A stretch of 47,515 nucleotides of DNA from Sphingobacterium sp. T2 (GTDB lineage: Bacteria; Bacteroidota; Bacteroidia; Sphingobacteriales; Sphingobacteriaceae), in NCBI RefSeq assembly GCF_000814685.1, contig NZ_JXAC01000050.1, forward strand, positions 1 to 47,515, given 5' to 3'. The translations under genes and the position numbers were made by a program. Of this stretch, positions 1,074 to 44,202 are shown piece after piece (position 1 is the stretch's first letter; each line of letters opens with the position of its first letter). The notes beneath the pieces were generated by a model, which was not told the origin of the DNA, ran no database searches, and saw only the letters and a list, made by a program, of their open reading frames with translations.

Positions 1074-2714
1074 CTAAAAAATATTTTTAGCGACCAAAGG
1101 CATTGCCCTTCCGGCGCCAAACGCTTTAGGACTCACTCGTAGAATAGGAGGGGCCTGGAAACGCTTGAATTCGGCTCCGGCTAGCATCTTGGAAATGCGC
1201 TGTACTAGTGTTTCTTCAAAACCTAAATTTACGACCTCACTGCCCGATTTTTCTTTCTCTTATAAGCTGATACAAGATAGCATCTAAGATTTCGTATGGA
1301 GGTAAGGAGTCAGAGTCTTTCTGGTCAGGACGCAGCTCTGCAGAAGGTGCTTTGGTTATTGTGTTAAGCGGTATAATTTCTTCATTGCGATTAATGTAGT
1401 GGGCGAGCTCGTAGGCTTGGGTCTTATAAATATCGCCTATAACACTTAATGCTCCAGCCATATCGCCGTACAGTGTGCCATATCCCACCGCGGCTTCACT
1501 CTTGTTGGAGGTGTTAAGCAGGATGTATCCAAACTTATTGGATACGGCCATAAGCAGCGTTCCACGTGTACGTGCCTGTATGTTTTCTTCCGTAGTGTCC
1601 GGCTTTAGGCCAGCAAAAGCTTCTGAGAGGGTATTTTCAAAAGCTTGGGCAATATCTTTAATTGGTAAGATCAGATGCTTACAGCCTGTGTTTTCTACCA
1701 AAGCTAAGGCATCACTGATGGAGTGATCCGAGGAATAGATGGAAGGCATGAGTACGGCAAGTACATTCTCTCTGCCTAAGGCTTCGACGGCTAAGGCCGC
1801 CACTACGGCAGAGTCCAGTCCTCCTGAAAGTCCTAACACTGCTTTTTGGAATCCTGACTTGCTGAAGAAGTCTCTCAAGCCTAGAATTAGGGCATCATGA
1901 ATCAGTGCTATTTCCGATTTTTCTTCCGTCACGGGTGGCTGTTCTGCTTTTAGTTCTTTACCCTGAAGTTCCACAAACTGCATATCTTCTTCGAAAGCTT
2001 TCAGCTCAGCAAGGACCTGTCCTTTGGAGTCGAGAGCCAAAGAGCGTCCGTCGAAGATGAGGTCTGTATGTGCTCCCACCTGGTTTACATACAAGAGGGG
2101 GGTCTGTGCCTTTTCAATATTGGAACGCAAGACTTCCAGACGTTTGTGGTAATGAACGTAAGAAAATGGCGATGCAGCGAGGTTAATGATGATATCCGGA
2201 TTCTGCTTGCTGAGTTCCAGCATCAGATCTCCCTTGTACGAGTTGTCGAAATCGTTGTCCCAGAGGTCTTCACAAATGGTTAAAGCAATCTTGGTGTCCT
2301 TCAGCGTGATACATTCGTACACGTCGTTGGGCTCAAAATAGCGGTATTCGTCGAAGACGTCATAGTCAGGCAAGAGGGATTTGTGTACTGTGCAGGCTAT
2401 TTCTCCTTTCGAAAGGACGACAGCAGCATTTACTAGGCTTTGCCCTCGCCTTTAGGGTTTTTTAGTGGTACCCCGATGATACAGTCAATATCTGTACAGT
2501 GAGTGGCAATGTTTTCAAGAGATTTTCTACATCTTTCAATGAAAACAGCATTGCGAAGTAGGTCTTTGGCCGGATATCCTCCGACGGCCAGCTCGGCAAA
2601 GAGAATCAGATCTGCCTGCTGTTCTTTAGCTCGTTGGATGGCTTGAATAATTTTCTCTTCATTCGATTCAAAATTGCCGATATGATAGTTCAGTTGCGCT
2701 AATGCTATTTTCAT
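1074..2714 (-). CDS. nadE: Glutamine-dependent NAD+ synthetase (two frameshifts)
   Basis: NadE makes NAD+ from deamido-NAD+, ATP and glutamine, the last step of NAD biosynthesis. The N-terminal nitrilase-type glutaminase domain (about 1-270) begins with 'MKIALAQLNYHIG' and carries Glu in 'ILFAELAVGGYPAKDL' and the Cys nucleophile in 'ICEDLWDND'. The C-terminal synthetase domain has the ATP-pyrophosphatase P-loop 'GLSGGLDSAVVAALA'. The frame breaks near 2437, where one C appears to be missing, and near 1244, where one A appears to be extra. Repairing both gives 546 residues ending 'AMPLVAKNIF', the normal family length. The gene lies 23 bp behind the beta-barrel gene. Because this enzyme is normally essential, the breaks are more likely sequence errors than real lesions. 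Confidence 0.9.
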
Positions 2715-4551: not shown

Positions 4552-5206
4552 TTATTGGATGTCCAATACCTCAAATTCATATACCAAAGGTGAATTTGCC
4601 GGTACTTTGCCAGAAAGACCTGTGCTTCCATACGCATAAATCGATGGCACCACTAGCTTGATTTTGCTTCCCTTTTTCAAACCTTTCTCGGTAAGCCCCA
4701 CGTAAGGGATGAACGAACCGTTAAGGGAGTAACGCGCAGGGAAGAAAGCTACAAGCCAAGCATAAGTGAAAATGTTATTGTTGTCATTGGATGTCAATGA
4801 ATATGTGGATCCTTCTGTATCCGAAAAGACAGGAGTATCACTGGTCAGTAGTTTTACCGAGTATTTTAACTTCCAAGTTGGATACACTACGTTTGTCTGA
4901 GTAGCGTTCAATTTATATTCGTATGAGTCGTCTGTAGGTTGGGATAATATTTCATACCAGATACCTCTTTTTACTTTGTTTGTTTAAAACTTCGAAAGGA
5001 TATTTTGTGGTATCTTCAACAGCATTAATCAAATTAGCTTGAACGTACGCTTCGATTTTAGGTTTTTCAACACTTAAAATAGAATCCGCATACTGATCGT
5101 TTCTCAATCTTATTTCATTGATGTCCGGGCCATCGGTGTCGTTGCAGGATGTAAATGCTGCAGTGGATAAGGATACGACAAAAAGAAAGCGAATTAGTTT
5201 TTTCAT
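4552..5206 (-). CDS. FKBP-type peptidyl-prolyl isomerase, lipoprotein (one frameshift)
   Basis: The N-terminus is a lipoprotein signal (lipobox ending 'AFTSC', Cys at 21). The C-terminal half has FKBP features: 'GSFIPYVGLTEKGLKKGSKIKLVVPSIYAYG' (positions about 160-190) and the closing strand 'SPLVYEFEVLDIQ'. It would assist folding of exported proteins at the membrane. The frame breaks in the A/T run near 4968-4972, most simply by one extra base. Repair joins 'EVLNKQSK' to 'RGIWYEILSQPTDD' and gives 217 residues. Some substrate-pocket aromatics of classical FKBPs are not obvious, so isomerase activity is inferred only. Confidence 0.75.
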
Positions 5207-5292: not shown

Positions 5293-5781
5293 TCATTTTT
5301 TATTTTGTTGGACAAATGTTTTCTCCATGGCTGTCAACAGCTCGTCCAACTGTAAAACATTTAACAGTCCCTTTTGTTTGAAAACTTGTTGGTAACCGGG
5401 AGATAACAGAATCCAAGTGGGATAAGCCGCCTTGTCATTGTCGTTTAAGTGCTGCGTCAGTTCGTGGCTACCTACATTCACTCCTGATGGTCGGTAGAAA
5501 TATTCTTTGCCTTGATAGATGACCCTTTCTCTGCTTTCACCGTTGAATTCCACGAAGTAAAAATGGGGGGATAGCTGATGAAACCTTTTATGTTTGCGGA
5601 GGATGTCTTTCTGGGATGCACAAATGGAACACCAGTCTGTAGAAAGCAAAATAAGCACCGGTTTTGGGGCATGGAGCATAAGGCTGTCCAGTTGATTAAT
5701 ATGTACTGAAAAAGCCTGTGCATGACTGTATTGCCATGCACAGAGGCTTATAATGAAAGCTATTAAGGTTGTTCTGCTCAT
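5293..5781 (-). CDS. Periplasmic thioredoxin-fold protein
   Basis: This is a 162-residue protein with a signal peptide (about 1-22, ending 'SHAQA') and a thioredoxin-like segment 'PVLILLSTDWCSICASQKDIL'. It has a CxxC pair at residues 51 and 54 (C-S-I-C), preceded by Trp as in thioredoxins. 'AAYPTWILLSPG' at about residues 118-129 supplies the cis-Pro region. It likely acts as a periplasmic thiol reductase, or as a metal-site chaperone. The gene starts 5 bp after the TonB receptor stop, so the two are almost certainly co-transcribed. The receptor's plug domain also carries a C-S-I-C pair, which may make it a substrate. Confidence 0.75.
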   Translation of the reverse strand: MSRTTLIAFIISLCAWQYSHAQAFSVHINQLDSLMLHAPKPVLILLSTDWCSICASQKDILRKHKRFHQLSPHFYFVEFNGESRERVIYQGKEYFYRPSGVNVGSHELTQHLNDNDKAAYPTWILLSPGYQQVFKQKGLLNVLQLDELLTAMEKTFVQQNKK

Positions 5782-5786
5782 AATTT

Positions 5787-8011
5787 TTAGAGTAGATTGT
5801 ATCGTAAACCTAAAAATCCACGAGCTCCTTGATTAGGACCGTATACGTAGCTAGTGTCGAAAGGCAAGAGATTAGGATCGTCAATCTTTTCGAAAGGATC
5901 ATGTGAACGGGAAATGATCTCGATACCTCCTTTTGTCGGTGTCCAGTTGAGGAAGTTCTTTACCCCACCGAAAATTTCCCATCCGTTATTGAATTGCTTA
6001 GTCACCTGAATGTTTTGGATGCTCCATGCTTTCGATTTGTCAGGACGAGGATCGTTTTCTCCTAGTGTCGGCAGTTTCATTGGTCCTATCAGGTTTCCCG
6101 TGTAGTCGAACGAGATTTTATGGCGTCTTAGGTTGTATCCTATAGTCCAGGTGCCCATCACTTTTTCTGTCAGCATCTGCTGCTGTCTGATTCCTTCTTC
6201 TACGCTATACACATCCATCAGTGTGGACCCTATCATTGCTTTAAGGCCACTGCTATGTGCCCAGTCAATATTTAGGGATACTCCTTTGGAGACAGCATGT
6301 CCTTCCAAGTTGCCATATATGATTTGATTTACATTGGTTTCGTAGTCCGGAATAATTTTGTTATCGAAATAGGTGTAAAAGGCGCTGGCATCCACAGAGA
6401 ATACCGAACCGCCCGGCATGTAGAATTTTTTGATATAGTTTATATTTCCATTCCAAGAAGTTTCAGGTTTCAGGTTGTCGACAAACACCACCTGGCGGGC
6501 ACCTGTAAGGGCTGCATGGTCTTCGGTGAAGATATTAGCCACACGGTAGCCGTTTCCTACGCCTATGCGTAGTACCTGAGTTCTGTCCTCCGAATTCCAT
6601 TTATAGTTGATACGTGGAGAGAGGATACTTCCATGGATGGAGTTATAGTCATATCGTGCTCCCAATAGCAACTTGTGTTGAGGATGTATTGTGATCTCAT
6701 CCTGAACAAAAAATCCCGGCAAATGTGTCTTGGAAGCTTCTGTGGTGGCTACGGTATTATCGTCATAATAGGTATAACGATAGGCTGCTCCCATCAATAG
6801 GTCATGCTTGCCGAATTCTTTACGCCAGGTCAGCTGTCCATAGGCAATTTTCTGATTGGCAATGTAGAAAGTGTTGCCGTAGGCACTGTTTTGGTCATGG
6901 CCGTTTAAGCTGAAGGTGAAAGTAAAATTTTCCGTAGTAGGCAAATCATAAGCCCCCATCAGTTCCCATCGTTTGGTATAGATACTTTCACCATACACTT
7001 CATCTCCACCGCGGAATTTGCGGGACCAGTTCATCTCACCTCCCCATCGGTCTTCATAAACATACCGAGCAGCGACGCTGAACAGTTTGTTATCTGCACG
7101 ATCGATATTCCATTTGTTGAAGATGGATATTCTATTTTGGAGGGTTACGTCCGTAAAGTTATCTCCATTTTTATCTTCAGGGTTCCCGTATTTGAAGTAG
7201 TTGGCCCCCAGAAGAGATTGCGCTTTGCCGAGTTTAAATTTTCCTCCCACGTCAAGGTTGTATTCCTGCCATGAGGTACCGAAGCTTTCTACATTAAATC
7301 TTGGTGCCGAGGTTGGTGTTTTAGTGATGATATTGATAAGTCCTCCCACCGCTTCACTACCATATAGGGTAGAGGCGGGCCCTTTTACCACTTCTACACG
7401 TTCCACCAATGCCTGAGGGATTCCGTTCAGACCGTATACGGTAGATAGTCCCGAAACAATAGGCATGCCATCAATCATGACCATGGTGTAGGGCCCCTCT
7501 AGTCCATTGATGTGGATGTCACCGGTGTTGCAGATGCTGCAGTTTATCTGTGGGCGTATTCCATTAATATTTTGTAGGGATTCGAAAATTGTAGGAGCAG
7601 GGTTAGTTTGAAAGAACTTAGCGGTAAATACCTCCACGGGTATGGGGCTGTCCAGCTTAGAAACTTGCTTAAGGGAGCCAGACACCACGACCTCTTCGAG
7701 TTTATAGTCGTCTTTTTCTAAGATTATCTCTATCTCGTTCTTAAAGTCGGAGCTGATGGTTTTTTGTGTCAAGGCGTAGCCTAATGCTCTTACGGTAATT
7801 TTGGTTTTGCCTGCCGGAATTTGTAGGGTAAATTTTCCGTTAGCGTCTGTAGAGGTGGCAGTTTTTGTGCCATCTACGGTTACAGTACCTTTTCGATAGG
7901 CGTGTTATCTGTGGTTTTTACGATACCTTGTAAGATCTGTTGTGCCTGAGCAAAGAAAGTAAATCCTACGAAAGCGAGCATTAATATAATGTACTTGCAA
8001 TATTGTTTCAT
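5787..8011 (-). CDS. TonB-dependent receptor with Cys-pair plug (one frameshift)
   Basis: The full gene begins at ATG 8011 with a signal peptide ending 'FAQAQ'. A carboxypeptidase regulatory-like domain (about 24-100) follows, then the TonB plug (about 105-225) and a 22-strand-type barrel to the C-terminus. The frame breaks near 7890-7893, where one A is missing in an A-run. Repair gives 741 residues. The plug contains 'INCSICNTGDIHINGLEG' (Cys at about 158 and 161) and 'VERVEVVKGPASTLYGSEAVGG'. The CxxC followed by GDIHINGL is unusual for siderophore receptors. Together with the His-rich protein upstream and the thioredoxin-fold protein downstream, it suggests a metal ion or metal-complex substrate, which is inference. 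Confidence 0.85.
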
Positions 8012-8056
8012 ATTGGTTTATAGCTTGTTTTACGATTAATATGGGTTATAGCATAA

Positions 8057-8068
8057 GCTGTATACAGC
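8057..8068. promoter_or_regulatory. Perfect 12-bp palindrome upstream of the TonB receptor gene
   Basis: GCTGTATACAGC is a perfect dyad 46 bp upstream of the receptor start. Position and symmetry suit a dimeric repressor such as a metal sensor, but no regulator is identified and the motif is not one I can name. Confidence 0.3.
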
Positions 8069-8127
8069 ATTACAGTCAAGTTTCGGTCCTGGTCCTTGAC
8101 TACGCATACAGGTACAGCACTGCCTAA

Positions 8128-8170
8128 AAGATTAGACAATAATCTTGCAAGGCATGATTATCATACCTTG
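8128..8170. promoter_or_regulatory. Two adjacent inverted repeats between the His-rich gene and the TonB receptor gene
   Basis: AAGATTA-gacaa-TAATCTT (8128-8146) is a perfect 7-bp stem. Beside it lies a 23-bp imperfect palindrome (8148-8170) whose core ATGATtATCAT is perfectly symmetric. They could be operators (the core loosely resembles Fur/Zur-type AT-rich dyads) or an intercistronic hairpin that reduces readthrough. The sequence alone does not decide. Confidence 0.3.
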
Positions 8171-8186
8171 AAAATTTTTATGTCAA

Positions 8187-8543
8187 TCAAACAAGCGTCG
8201 GTGGGCCTCGTAGGTACGAATGGAAAATCGTTACAGCAGGGATAAAGCAGCTGTAAACGACATTTTTCTCAATAGGGAATTCAGGAAAGAAAGGAACTTC
8301 AAAGACCTGAATGTCTGTTTGTATGAAAGTTCCCTGATAGAGGACGTCCAAGAAGCGTATTTCGGCGTCGCTCTTGTGTTTGTGTTTCTTGGTAAAATCA
8401 TAAGGGTGGACGTGAATGACGATTTCACCCTTAGATGTTACCTCCTTGTGCATAAAGACTATTCCGCTAATCACAATCACACTCATCCACGCTGCTAACA
8501 GCGAGGCTATGAGTCGGCGATATGTCGAAATAGTGTGTACCAT
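8187..8543 (-). CDS. Small His-rich single-pass membrane protein, probable metal-handling partner of the TonB receptor
   Basis: This protein is 118 residues from ATG 8543, 14 bp after the panD stop. A TTG at 8555 is in frame but less likely. A transmembrane segment spans about residues 10-31. Just outside it lies 'IHVHPYDFTKKHKHKSDAE' with four His (44, 46, 54, 56) in two HxH pairs, and the C-terminus ends 'YLRGPPTLV'. Small membrane proteins with a metal-binding-looking motif and a terminal R-x-PP are known near metal-related TonB receptors and P-type ATPases in Bacteroidota. I place it in that class by resemblance only. Role in metal capture or sensing is inferred. Confidence 0.6.
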   Translation of the reverse strand: MVHTISTYRRLIASLLAAWMSVIVISGIVFMHKEVTSKGEIVIHVHPYDFTKKHKHKSDAEIRFLDVLYQGTFIQTDIQVFEVPFFPEFPIEKNVVYSCFIPAVTIFHSYLRGPPTLV

Positions 8544-8557
8544 CTGATGATACAAAT

Positions 8558-8908
8558 TTATTTAATCAGTCTATTATTTTCATCCGGGAAAACTACTTTC
8601 GGTTTATAGGATTTCGCTTCTTCCTTGTCCATGAGAGCGTAAGAGATAATAATGACGATATCTCCTACCTGCACCAGACGGGCTGCAGCACCGTTGAGAC
8701 AGATTGTGCCGGAACCTCTTTCGCCCGGGATGACGTAAGTTTCTAATCTTGCGCCATTATTGTTGTTTACAATTTGTACCTTTTCGTTAGCAATTATATC
8801 TGCTTCGTCCATCAAATCCTCGTCGATGGTAATACTCCCCACATAATTCAACTCGGCTTGTGTAACACGAGCACGGTGAATTTTGGACTTCATTACTTCA
8901 ATCATCAT
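8558..8908 (-). CDS. panD: Aspartate 1-decarboxylase
   Basis: PanD converts L-aspartate to beta-alanine for pantothenate and CoA synthesis. It is made as a proenzyme that cleaves itself between Gly24 and Ser25 to form a pyruvoyl cofactor. The sequence has '[16 protein letters not shown]' with Gly-Ser exactly at 24-25, and '[31 protein letters not shown]' at about 61-91. At 116 residues it is full length and intact. It lies 34 bp downstream of panC on the same strand, so the two beta-alanine/pantothenate genes form one unit. Confidence 0.95.
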
Positions 8909-8942: not shown

Positions 8943-9794
8943 TTAGTCGTTTAACAGCATATTGTCAATTAATCTTACACCTTCAATCCAGGCTACTATA
9001 TGTGCTACATACTGTTTTCCTGGCTCTATGCTGTCCGCTCTTTCGAGTGTTCGAGTCTCACTTATGGCAAAATATTCCAGATCTACGTCTCTTTCTGCAG
9101 CAATCATATTTTCTGCCAGCTGCTGAATTTTGTCCAGCGCTATATTTTCTTGGAAAGCTTGCTTTACGGCTGACAGCGTCCTGTAAAGGATGAGGGCTTT
9201 CTTTTTACCTTGTTCAGAAAGGCGCGTGTTTCGGGAGCTGAGTGCCAGTCCTTCCTCGCTACGTATAATGGGACAGATGACCAATTGTATGTTGAGGTTT
9301 TTAATCTCTATGAGACGCTGAATTACCATTACCTGCTGGAAATCTTTCTGTCCGAAGCACGCTATATCCGGGTTTACGAGCGTGAAGAGCTTGTAGACAA
9401 TCTGCGTGACACCCTGAAAATGTCCAGGTCTTTGAGCTCCTTCCCATATTTGGTCAAGACGTCCTAGGTCAATATGCCATTGTTCCTCCGGGTCGGGATA
9501 CATCTCTTCGACAGTGGGCAGAAAAAGGACGTCACATCCTTGCTTTTGTAACAAATCTATATCTTGTTCTATAGGTCTGGGATACTTTTCCAGATCTTTC
9601 GGATCGTTGAATTGCGTAGGGTTTACAAAGATGCTGCAAACAACAATATCTGCGCGTTGCTGGGCTTGTTGGATGAGGGACAGATGTCCTTCGTGCAAAG
9701 CGCCCATAGTAGGCACTAACGCTATTTTTTTGTGCTCCGCACGTGGCTTTTCAAGGTAGTTGCGAAGCTCTTTTTGGGTTTTGAAAATTTCCAT
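8943..9794 (-). CDS. panC: Pantothenate synthetase
   Basis: PanC joins pantoate to beta-alanine using ATP via a pantoyl-adenylate. The 283-residue protein is intact. It shows the nucleotidyltransferase signature 'VPTMGALHEGHLSLI' (residues about 27-41, HxGH), 'VNPTQF' and 'PDIACFGQKDFQQVMVIQRL', and the KMSKS-like region 'EGLALSSRNTRLS'. It is first gene of a minus-strand run panC-panD and is divergent from the GT5-domain gene, with 144 bp between their start codons. Confidence 0.96.
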   Translation of the reverse strand: MEIFKTQKELRNYLEKPRAEHKKIALVPTMGALHEGHLSLIQQAQQRADIVVCSIFVNPTQFNDPKDLEKYPRPIEQDIDLLQKQGCDVLFLPTVEEMYPDPEEQWHIDLGRLDQIWEGAQRPGHFQGVTQIVYKLFTLVNPDIACFGQKDFQQVMVIQRLIEIKNLNIQLVICPIIRSEEGLALSSRNTRLSEQGKKKALILYRTLSAVKQAFQENIALDKIQQLAENMIAAERDVDLEYFAISETRTLERADSIEPGKQYVAHIVAWIEGVRLIDNMLLND

Positions 9795-32641: not shown

Positions 32642-34261
32642 TTATAGTGTAGTTTTTGGTGCTGCAGAAAGGATTTCTTCGTTGGCGTGCTGTTCGTACT
32701 GTTTGAAGTTGTTGACAAAGAGTTTTGCCAGCTCTATGGCCTGCTTATCATATTCTTCTTTGTCGTCCCAAGTGTTGCGAGGGTTCAGCACTTCGGCAGG
32801 CACACCGGGACAAGACTGCGGTTTCAGTACGCCAAAGACCTCGTGGGCCACATATTCCACGTTGTCCAAATCACCACGCATGGCTGCATTAATCATTGCC
32901 CTTGTATATTTGAGGTTCATGCGCTTACCCACACCATACTTACCGCCGGTCCATCCCGTATTTACCAACCACACGTTTACGTCCGGATGCTTTTCGAGCT
33001 TTTCCCCCAATAGTTCGGCATACTGCGTAGGGTGAAGCGGCAAGAATACGCGACCAAAACAAGCTGAGAAGGTTGTCTGAGGCTCCGTAACACCTACTTC
33101 TGTTCCCGCCACCTTGGCAGTATATCCTGAGATGAAGTGGTACATAGCCTGTGCTTTGGTAAGCTTGGCGATAGGAGGAAGGATGCCAAAGGCATCGCAG
33201 GTCAGGAAGAAAATGTTTTTAGGATTTCCTCCCAAGGATGGCACCTTAGCGTTGGGGATATAGTCTATGGGATATGCTACACGAGTTATTTTCGGTGATG
33301 GAGGTATTGGAAAAGTCAACCACGTTGCTGTTTTCGAAGAATACCACGTTTTCTAGCAGGGCTCCGGGACGTATAGCCCCATAGATTTCGGGTTCTTTTT
33401 CGGCGCTGAGGTCTACGACTTTGGCGTAACAACCTCCTTCGAAATTAAATACCGACCTTCTGCCCATCCGTGTTCATCATCTCCGATAAGGCTTCTGTTG
33501 GCATCGGCCGACAAGGTGGTCTTTCCTGTACCACTCAATCCGAAGAAAAGTGAAACGTCGCCATCTTTACCTTCGTTGGCCGAGCAGTGCATCGGCAGAA
33601 TGTTGTATTGATGAGGCAGGATGAAGTTCAGTACCGAGAAGATACCTTTTTTCATCTCACCGGTATAGGCGGAGCCCCCGATGAGGATGACTTTCTCCGT
33701 GAAATTTAATATGGTGAAGTTCCCTGATCTTGTTCCATCCACAGCAGGGTCGGCAAGGAATTCAGGAACTTGAAGTATAATCCATTCTTTTTCAAAAGAA
33801 GAGAGTTCTTCTTCCGATGGAGAGATGAAAAGATTATTGCAGAAAAGGTTAGCCCATGGGGTGGTGTTGATTACTGTAACATTGATTCTGTAATTTTTGT
33901 CTGCTCCGGCAAAGCAATGTCTCACCCAGATGTCTTTCCCTTGCAAGAAAGCTTTCATCTTAGTATATAGGTTATGAAACACCTCCTCCGATATGGGAAG
34001 GTTGACGTCTCCCCAGTCTATGGTATGTGCCGTAATACTGTCTTTAACGATAAACTTGTCTTTAGGCGAACGGCCAGTGAACTTTCCTGTAGTGACGCAT
34101 AGGGCCCCTAGGTCGTTCAGCTTTCCCTGACCCAAATCCAATGTCTGTTGGGTTAACGTTTGATTATCAAGATTGAAGTAAACTTTTCGGGCGATAATGC
34201 CCATTTCTGTTAAGTCGATTAAATCGCTCTTTGAGCCAGCATCTAATCTCTCCATGATCAT
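32642..34261 (-). CDS. pckA: Phosphoenolpyruvate carboxykinase (ATP), two frameshifts
   Basis: PckA converts oxaloacetate and ATP to PEP and CO2, the entry to gluconeogenesis. Visible motifs are '[14 protein letters not shown]' (about 58-71), the P-loop '[14 protein letters not shown]', 'GDDEHGW' (kinase-2, metal-binding Asp) and 'FEGGCYAK'. '[16 protein letters not shown]' near the C-terminal third is also present. The frame breaks near 33455 (one base missing) and near 33286-33288 (one base extra). Repair gives 539 residues, the family length. ATG 34261 and ATG 34255 are both possible starts. It ends at the shared terminator. Confidence 0.93.
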
Positions 34262-42758: not shown

Positions 42759-44049
42759 TTATCTGTTTTCGATGTCTACATATTCACGGTCTACTTCACC
42801 AATATATACTTGTCTTGGACGACCGATAGGCTCTTTGTTGTCGCGCATTTCTTTCCATTGGGCAATCCATCCAGGAAGACGGCCTAAGGCAAAAAGCACA
42901 GTAAACATTTCTGAGCTGAAGCCCAATGCACGGTAGATAATGCCAGAGTAGAAATCTACGTTTGGATATAGTTTTCTTTGGATGAAGTACTCGTCCGAAA
43001 GGGCGGCTTCTTCCAGTTTCTTTGCAATATCCAATACAGGATCTTTAACACCTAATTTAGCCAACACATCGTCACACGCTTTTTTGATGATTCTAGCACG
43101 TGGGTCGAAGTTTTTGTAAACACGGTGTCCGAAGCCCATAAGGCGGAACGGATCGTTTTTATCTTTTGCTTTGGCAATGTATTTCTGAACGTCGCCACCA
43201 TCGTTTTTGATAGCTTCCAACATCTCGATAACGGCTTGGTTGGCACCTCCGTGTAGAGGACCCCACAAGGCGTTGATACCTGCAGAAATAGAAGCATATA
43301 GGTTGGCATTTGAAGAACCTACGATACGTACGGTAGAAGTAGAACAGTTTTGTTCGTGGTCAGCGTGTAAAATCAACAACACACGCATAGCGTCCAACAC
43401 CACTTCGTCGAAGATCTTATCACAGTTTACTTCGCCGAAGATCATATTCATGAAATTGTCGATATATCCGAAATCTTTCTTAGGATATACTACTGGATGA
43501 CCTAACGATTTCTTGTGAATCCAAGAAACGATGGTAGGCATTTTTCCTAAAAGGTTTACGATAGTACGGTACTCTTCGTCTTCGTTTTGATTAGGATTTA
43601 AAGATTCTGGATAGAACGCTGATAAAGCACCTACCAAACACGAAAGCTGACCCATAGGGTGAGATTTTGATGGGAATCCCGCGAAGAAATTTTTCATGTC
43701 TTCGTGAACCATCATTTGGGATTTGATATCCGACCTTGAATTTTTCCAACACTTCTTTAGTTGGCAATTCTCCGTATATCAAAAGGTAAGCTACTTCCAA
43801 GAAGGTAGATTTTTCGGCTAAGTCTTCGATCTTATAGCCGCGATTAATTTTAAAAGTACCTTTTTCACCATCCAAAAAAGTAATGGCACTTTTGGTAGCA
43901 CCTGTGTTTTTGAATCCTGGGTCTAAAGTTATATATCCTGTTTGTTGTCTTAATTGTGAAATATCAATAGCTTTCTCGTTCTCTGTTCCTGTGATAACAG
44001 GCAGCTCTAAAGTCTTGCCATTTAAAGTAATAGATGCTGTTTCCGACAT
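42759..44049 (-). CDS. gltA: Citrate synthase (one frameshift)
   Basis: GltA condenses acetyl-CoA and oxaloacetate in the first step of the TCA cycle. The repaired 429-residue protein starts at ATG 44049 and has 'GKTLELPVITGTENEKAIDI' near the N-terminus. 'GPLHGGANQAVIEML' and 'FGHRVYKNFDPRA' carry the two catalytic His, and 'YPNVDFYSGIIYRALG' the catalytic Asp. The frame breaks near 43733, where removing one base joins 'LEKFK' to 'SDIKSQMMVHEDMK'. This matches the type II (hexameric-type) bacterial enzyme in length and motifs. Confidence 0.95.
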
Positions 44050-44070
44050 AATCAATTTTCTTGTATTATA

Positions 44071-44078
44071 CAAAAGTA
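44071..44078 (-). promoter_or_regulatory. Promoter -7 element for gltA
   Basis: Read on the minus strand, TACTTTTG matches TAnnTTTG exactly, 21 bases upstream of the gltA start. The -33 position holds only TTT (21 bp spacer), so support comes mainly from the -7 element. Confidence 0.45.
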
Positions 44079-44202
44079 TAAAATTCAATAAGAAATTCTA
44101 AACTTATAGGGACTTAAAATGCCATTTATCGGTCATATTAATAGTAAGACACAATACTGTTTAACTCCCTGATTATCTATTTCTGCCTAAAATTTGGTTA
44201 GA

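Follow-up and report, generated by a model that had tools for sequence, protein, structure and literature searches.

The window analysed here, that is the whole stretch from 1 to 47,515 of contig NZ_JXAC01000050.1 of Sphingobacterium sp. T2 (genome G000, 3.04 Mb in 326 contigs), carries on its minus strand, according to its list of open reading frames (ORFs), panC and panD followed by genes for a His-rich membrane protein, a TonB-dependent receptor and a thioredoxin-like (Trx) protein. The last three, henceforth the trio, had been proposed in an earlier note on this DNA to form a unit for uptake of copper or zinc; their positions are as given there, with the correction that the receptor likely starts at 8011 and has a frame break near 7880. 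The features are as follows.

8943-9794, minus strand: panC, named by eye.
8558-8908, minus strand: ORF for a panD (aspartate decarboxylase)-like protein, named by eye, with the His gene beginning 14 bp downstream.
8187-8543, minus strand: His-rich single-helix membrane protein of 118 residues, starting 14 bp after panD.
8149-8169, no strand assigned: near-perfect 21-bp palindrome AAGGYATGATNATCATRCCTT, between the His gene and the receptor.
5787-8011, minus strand: TonB-dependent receptor, open for 661 residues from 7772, likely ATG at 8011, frame broken near 7880.
7530-7541, minus strand: C-S-I-C of the receptor plug, C78 and C81 of the 661-residue ORF, Cys codons 7539-7541 and 7530-7532.
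5293-5781, minus strand: exported thioredoxin-like protein of 162 residues with the site WCSIC, starting 5 bp after the receptor stop.

By its domains the receptor is a TonB-dependent transporter (Pfam Plug 76.4 bits, cut-off 23.9; TonB_dep_Rec_b-barrel 91.3 bits, cut-off 27), and its plug reads N-C-S-I-C-N-T-G-D-I-H-I-N-G-L, with the Cys pair ahead of GDIHINGL as the earlier note had it. Two sets of relatives were compared. The first consists of 80 loci, the best 80 of 256 receptor matches from one search of a genome collection, in which the nearest relatives were from Sphingobacterium; these receptors are 57-82% identical to that of the window and range from Sphingobacterium to relatives in the Flavobacteriales, Cytophagales and Chitinophaga, and the loci share ancestry and include several near copies (L017/L018, L019/L021; L denotes a locus and G a genome throughout). 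The second comprises 29 loci, the best matches of a receptor search of 395 Bacteroidota genomes with the window excluded; many are of one genus, flanks extend only about 1.2-1.5 kb, and species may overlap with the first 80. A plug CxxC is present in 80/80 loci of the first set, as N-C-[SN]-[VI]-C, and in 29/29 of the second, 11 of which have the form C-G-V-C. Both cysteines are invariant across 53 aligned receptor rows, and 48 of the 53 receptors have exactly two cysteines, those of the CxxC pair, the other five having three. Conservation to this degree in proteins with few other cysteines argues that the pair is more than chance.

The thioredoxin-like protein has, by eye, a signal-like N terminus and the active site WCSIC, in agreement with its earlier description as an exported protein with a C-S-I-C of its own. 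As a single window sequence it scores just under the Pfam cut-off for Thioredoxin_7 (25.3 against 27 bits); the profile of its family matches DsbD C-terminal domains and thioredoxin-like proteins in the PDB (best E 4e-8), and WCxxC is present in 41/41 of the Trx relatives and WCxYC in 38/41, as in members of the thioredoxin-like superfamily. The occurrence of C-S-I-C in both the receptor and the Trx of the window looks like a coincidence, since the motif in the relatives is C[NSG][VI]C for the receptor and, in those 38, WCxYC for the Trx. In the His-rich protein, the two HxH pairs that had been noted just outside a membrane helix are HVH at H44/H46 and HKH at H54/H56, both past one hydrophobic segment and followed by a C-terminal LRGPP; H31, H43, H45 and H55 (numbered from residue 2) and the LRGPP are invariant in 20 aligned rows of the family, the window included. 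The window protein has no Pfam or NCBIfam match, five homologues gave only sub-threshold Pfam matches, and a structure model (pLDDT 56) is uninformative on its fold.

By clustering, 41 of the 80 loci have a Trx gene immediately 3′ of that for the receptor (42 by profile, the extra one being a truncated ORF in L039), with a gap of -4 to +49 bp in 38 of the 41 and an overlap, through the choice of start, in the remaining three; a His gene lies 5′ of the receptor in 19 of the 80. The corresponding counts in the second sample are 17/29 for a Trx beside the receptor and 1/29 for a His gene. Of the 395 sampled genomes, 57, representing 26 of 170 genera, have a close receptor relative (E 1e-150 or better), always one per genome; 12 have a member of the His family and 138 one of the wider Trx family. 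The condition for refutation set in the earlier note, receptor homologues consistently without the other two genes, thus gives a mixed result: association of the receptor with its partners is frequent, but not obligatory. Two pairs of loci have near-identical gene coordinates and Trx scores in different organisms, namely L017/L018 in Chryseobacterium sp. JM1 and Sphingobacterium psychroaquaticum, and L019/L021 in a metagenome-assembled genome (MAG) and Vaginella massiliensis, which suggests recent transfer or contamination.

The His family, when searched for in the 395 genomes, was found in 13 places; 11 regions besides that of the window were examined, G078 being left out. In 11/11 the His gene is directly 5′ of a same-strand gene of TonB receptor size, and the plug motif of these receptors is CQNC in eight, CNVC in one and lacking in two. 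Seven loci were compared with the window, and in all of them but L015 the His gene comes after panC and panD homologues; panD is a syntenic anchor of the slot in which the trio lies. In L157 and L158, both from Sphingobacterium, this slot reads panC-panD-His-[CQNC receptor]-Trx, with identities to the window of 84-86% for panD, 48-52% for His, 25% for the receptor and 25-30% for Trx, as against 84, 51, 78 and 45%, respectively, in L013. Since panD and His are alike but the receptor and Trx divergent in L157/L158, the receptor was exchanged there, perhaps together with its Trx. The C[NSG][VI]C and CQNC receptors each form a clade with 100/100 support, and joining both in one clade is disfavoured (approximately unbiased (AU) test, p 0.010, a test made with knowledge of the first tree and with long branches present). 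The recurrence of Cys pair, Trx and His peptide across two receptor clades is the best argument, one by association, for a joint function. Searches of plasmids by tblastn gave, with the window receptor, matches all below 60% identity among the 40 of 774 records listed, which did not reach the proteobacterial CQNC module discussed below, and, with the L157 CQNC receptor, 18 records, all from Bacteroidota and below 60% identity.

It might be argued that the locus is a chance neighbourhood, i.e. one in which neither the Trx nor the small protein has anything to do with the receptor, and the partners are indeed missing in many relatives. This explanation is strongly disfavoured by the tight spacing of Trx and receptor in 38 of 41 loci, which come from several taxonomic orders, by the position of the His gene in all 11 further regions, and by the two other Sphingobacterium genomes in which a different CxxC receptor, perhaps with its Trx, lies between the same panD-His and downstream genes; we regard it as highly improbable. 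Small protein/receptor pairs of other kinds were also seen: in L172 (5536-8322) and L173 (5326-8085), from gut Bacteroides/Parabacteroides, the gene for a CQNC-type receptor comes after that for a small His-rich protein, and L168 (4221-7511, Parabacteroides distasonis) has a small Cys-rich exported protein, a TonB receptor and a protein with a heavy-metal-associated domain, perhaps a parallel pairing for copper.

A DtxR-family regulator of 190-250 residues is encoded in 43 of the 80 loci, divergently from the receptor and within 600 bp of it in 37 of those 43, and in 10 of the 29 short-flanked loci; two of the regulators were tested and have Fe_dep_repress, Fe_dep_repr_C and FeoA domains. Expectation-maximisation on the 37 divergent intergenic regions yielded a palindrome, TTTGTTAGATTAATCTAACAAA (22.5 bits; henceforth the box), which was counted from a threshold of 10 bits, L039 at 9.4 thus counting as without a box. 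A box of at least 10 bits is present upstream of the cassette in 65 of the 80 loci, including 28 of the 43 outside the training set, compared with 5 of 568 windows upstream of other genes; an alternative null of 16/628 counts the receptor's own site as viewed from divergent neighbours, so 5/568 is the cleaner of the two. In the second sample, 24 of the 29 loci have the box. Across the 1.06 Mb of the 80 loci, 79 sites reach 10 bits (six in shuffled sequence), 68 of them near a receptor start. Of the remaining 11, five are upstream of NRAMP or DtxR-NRAMP genes, another separates the DtxR gene from that for ZIP in L015, one precedes the His gene of L015, two precede lipoprotein-like ORFs in loci with an ABC importer, and two are chance-like. 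In the relatives, the operator is therefore common to receptor cassettes and importer genes. In L015, which also has a DtxR gene, and in five Parapedobacter loci, the box comes before the His gene, so that there His gene, receptor and Trx form one box-headed unit.

A strict pattern, applied to 12 whole genomes, found 20 sites, compared with six for a reversed-pattern control. Eighteen of the 20 lie in fetched loci: five at a receptor cassette, three at DtxR-NRAMP, two at ABC/SBP-like genes, two at DtxR-SBP-like genes in one locus, and six with no metal gene seen nearby. This pattern is narrower than the box profile and misses some receptor boxes (G009 has no site, and the sole site of G001 is at no metal gene). 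In L159 (4740-5198) a 14-bit box lies directly before a His-family gene, which is followed by a heme/ZnuD-like receptor without CxxC; from this pairing, the His family partners other receptor types as well.

Among solved structures, the regulators are closest to 5zr4 ('metal-dependent transcriptional regulator'), then to SloR and ScaR, and less close to IdeR, DtxR and MntR of the B. subtilis type; one regulator that was tested scored 127.9 bits with a Thermus-type MntR model and 82.3 bits with DtxR, all under cut-off. The motif VHxxAExxEH has Glu in 43 of 44 regulators (one is unmatched by the pattern), not Cys, which we take to be the mark at that position of Fe-responsive DtxR/IdeR, and Asn stands where MntR has Asp. 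Two observations concern possible fusions: an ORF of 427 residues in L017 (1773-3056) has an ABC metal permease-like start and clusters with the DtxR regulators, and PF02742 also matches frames of 428-463 residues in other genomes, suggesting permease-DtxR fusions.

Importers encoded in the 80 loci comprise NRAMP (6), ABC ATPase (10) and ZIP (10) proteins. The NRAMP tested passes the MntH model (578 against 430 bits) as well as TIGR01197 (Mn2+/Fe2+), and the best model for the ABC ATPase tested is manganese MntA, at 241.7 of 400 bits. With the SloR/ScaR-like regulators, these results favour Mn(II), or Mn(II) with Fe(II). The earlier proposal of copper or zinc therefore gives way: the regulator, box and co-regulated importers of the relatives are of Mn(II)/Fe(II) type, and the cargo is probably Mn(II)/Fe(II) rather than Cu or Zn. 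An NRAMP with a fused C-terminal universal stress protein domain was seen beside the cassette in L066 (8467-10326).

The closest described system is orf2357-orf2358 of Stenotrophomonas maltophilia Sm18, which encodes an MntR-controlled CQNC TonB receptor and a periplasmic thioredoxin-fold protein (PMC13217887, 2026). According to that paper, the operon has an MntR box, is derepressed in an mntR deletion and is induced when Mn and Fe are both limiting; its authors propose reduction of the CQNC motif as a possible task of the thioredoxin-fold protein and leave function open. They report the module from Lysobacterales, Sphingomonadales and Opitutales, and the word 'bacteroid' is absent from the main text. 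The trio is like this module in having a mid-plug CxxC and an exported thioredoxin-fold protein encoded directly downstream (WCSIC, 5 bp away, in the window), and its relatives in having a DtxR/MntR-family regulator, a palindromic box and an NRAMP nearby. It differs in having CSIC at the place of CQNC, its 80 close relatives all having some other CxxC, and in its receptor clade, which is separate from that of the CQNC receptors, the latter being represented in this comparison by sequences from Bacteroidota. Further differences from the module as described are the additional His-rich membrane protein of the window and the ABC or ZIP importers that occur instead of, or beside, NRAMP. The MntR box with adjacent mntR and mntH reported for S. 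maltophilia has no counterpart in the window genome, whereas relatives have DtxR in 43/80, NRAMP in 6/80 and the box in 65/80.

The statement in the earlier note that no described system matches has thus been overtaken by PMC13217887, while its idea of a metal-uptake unit whose receptor has a Cys pair in the plug and a Trx as partner gains support, as does joint inheritance of the genes, from synteny, the common box and the Stenotrophomonas module. No Bacteroidota description of the cassette was seen among the open-licence PMC papers that the literature searches listed, and the accessible portions of PMC11960050 and PMC6776340 do not describe it. The window unit is a Bacteroidota variant of the recently described module, for which metal and redox role are inferred. 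A second system, MnoT of Burkholderia, is a TonB-dependent Mn transporter partnered by a T6SS-secreted Mn-binding protein (from PMC13217887); it resembles the candidate function here as a TonB receptor for Mn(II) under limitation, a likeness of role, and no thioredoxin partner is mentioned in the part of the PMC13217887 account that concerns it.

On this basis we propose, with a probability of roughly 0.6, that the trio is the outer-membrane part of a system for divalent-metal import under metal scarcity, most likely of Mn(II) and possibly also of Fe(II). The alternatives considered overlap with this proposal and with one another, and the odds assigned to them do not add to 1. One is that Fe(II) is the main cargo, with an iron-responsive regulator of DtxR type, import of Fe(II) by the cassette and the NRAMP, ABC and ZIP proteins, and a Trx that keeps the plug thiols, and thereby the iron, reduced. 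Fe(II) is a possible substrate of ABC and ZIP importers such as these, and the NRAMP passes TIGR01197 besides MntH; moreover, the S. maltophilia operon is strongly induced only under joint Mn and Fe limitation (PMC13217887). By contrast, the regulators are nearer to Mn-responsive SloR/ScaR and the MntR model than to IdeR/DtxR, they have Glu rather than Cys in VHxxAExxEH, and inspection of 17 box loci by eye showed neither feo nor siderophore genes, such that iron as the main cargo seems rather unlikely.

Several observations weigh against import of Mn(II) by the trio. Cysteine is an unusual ligand for Mn(II), and in an AlphaFold2 model of the receptor (pLDDT 76, pTM 0.79) the plug loop has pLDDT below 50, making a metal site unreadable from it. 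A Trx was not found adjoining the receptor in 39 of the 80 loci, though the CxxC is retained (in one, L056, the contig ends 265 bp past the receptor), and a His gene was not found in 61. For the ZIP tested, the top model is 'zinc transporter ZupT', at 140 bits against a cut-off of 252; in L022, a locus with a box of 27 bits all the same, a ZigA-like zinc GTPase (546 of 600 bits) is encoded beside the receptor; and six loci, five from Algoriphagus and one from a Flammeovirgaceae MAG, have genes or gene fragments that by eye are copper-ATPase-like, 2-6 kb from the receptor. In the window's own genome, there is no match to the DtxR metal-binding domain (PF02742), to NRAMP (PF01566) or to ZnuA/TroA, and no box at the trio, the best score being 1.7 bits in the window and 1.0 bit near the trio; with regulator and box absent, the link to manganese is drawn from the relatives. 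Finally, Mn still lowers expression of the S. maltophilia operon without MntR, implying further control there (PMC13217887). Copper was rejected as the cargo, there being no copper model among the 25 of 27 receptor matches listed and copper-ATPase-like genes in the six loci only.

The state of G000 raises the question of whether the cargo has changed to Zn(II) in the window's lineage, where DtxR and box are absent and ZIP is the sole remaining importer family among those tested. G000 has two ZIPs, HxH and Cys pairs are good Zn ligands, and the ZigA-like GTPase adjoins the receptor in L022. Against such a change, the window receptor is 57-67% identical to box-headed relatives, with the invariant residues kept; ZIPs homologous to those of G000 lie beside box-controlled cassettes, that on contig C82 being 80% identical to ZIPs downstream of receptor-Trx in L025, L029 and L041, and the L015 box is between DtxR and ZIP genes; the ZnuD model gives 25 of 950 bits. 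We consider a zinc-specific lineage improbable. The regulator domain occurs in 10 of 36 genomes of the genus (G000 included), and the 13 loci with a His gene but without a box are all from Sphingobacterium; we infer that operator and regulator were lost in the lineage of the window. A count of pattern sites in G000, 14 per strand compared with 29 for the reversed control, gave no excess, and the idea of an own-genome box was discarded.

A different question is whether the metal crosses as the free ion. TonB transporters mostly carry chelates, and the best sequence and fold matches of the receptor are Cir, FepA-type, heme and B12 receptors, the nearest solved folds to the model being Cir/FepA, then ChuA, BtuB and others. 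The receptor might therefore take up a complex, i.e. a metallophore, a peptide or protein-bound metal, from which the Trx and His proteins would strip the metal in the periplasm. No siderophore, heme, B12 or ZnuD NCBIfam model reaches its cut-off among the 25 of 27 matched models listed (TIGR01783, 83 of 223.5 bits; TIGR01785, 71 of 317; TIGR01779, 75 of 600; NF038289 (ZnuD), 25 of 950), such that a known siderophore or heme substrate, which the earlier note had regarded as telling against its proposal, is not indicated; nor did the 25 most frequent neighbour families, looked through by eye, include a cluster for chelate biosynthesis. ZnuD and Cir/CfrA/FepA share the plug and barrel fold with the receptor and are near to it by sequence or fold, with model scores far below cut-off, and a CirA of an E. 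coli plasmid that was compared lacks the motif CxxC[NGS][TFY]. Uptake of a complex is, in our view, unlikely.

If the trio does import Mn(II), the receptor would carry out TonB-driven uptake of Mn(II) (or Fe(II)), a step well supported by context. The exported Trx may act in the periplasm on the plug Cys pair, either keeping both thiols free or switching the pair between its dithiol and disulfide forms, which would let the plug bind or release metal, a role with the published parallel described above. To judge from its composition and position, the His-rich protein could provide a metal site in the periplasm or at the inner-membrane surface and hand the ion to an importer; the latter would be an NRAMP, an MntABC-type ABC system or a ZIP in the relatives, and probably the C82 ZIP in the window genome. 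Since the CxxC is kept in the 39 loci without a neighbouring Trx, another periplasmic reductant may serve there, or the Cys pair may have a role of its own. A more speculative extension, which we hold doubtful, is that the C[NSG][VI]C and CQNC clades are interchangeable in the His/Trx slot, with a Trx-reduced CxxC switch letting Mn(II)/Fe(II) in.

To our knowledge, little is understood of how Mn(II) or Fe(II), when free or weakly chelated, passes the outer membrane of Gram-negative bacteria. A redox-gated plug, if correct, would give first-row divalent metals a general way through the outer membrane in Bacteroidota and parts of Pseudomonadota; one described case of it was found, that from Stenotrophomonas in 2026. 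A conserved receptor with a possible thiol switch, a thioredoxin, an operator and inner-membrane partners can now be named for many Bacteroidota, and the natural difference in receptor within Sphingobacterium, with the absence of operator and regulator from G000, makes function and regulation directly testable.

Of the remaining features of the locus, the 21-bp palindrome at 8149-8169 was considered as an operator and rejected as a genome-wide one, being present as a single copy in the genome even at two mismatches; it is absent from the sister upstream regions inspected. A search for yybP-ykoY or another RNA switch gave no Rfam match in the window and seven loci. The receptor ATG at 8011 opens a signal-peptide-like stretch that is soon stopped, the N-terminal part being out of frame with the remainder. 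Apparent splits by frame breaks are seen in the ORF lists at window positions 1237-2714, 4552-5206, 7770-8011, 32642-34261 and 42759-44088, and the genes split like that of the receptor are, by eye, NAD-synthase-like, FKBP-like, PEPCK-like and citrate-synthase-like. As several window genes are split alike, the break in the receptor suggests an error of sequencing or assembly, decay not being proven.

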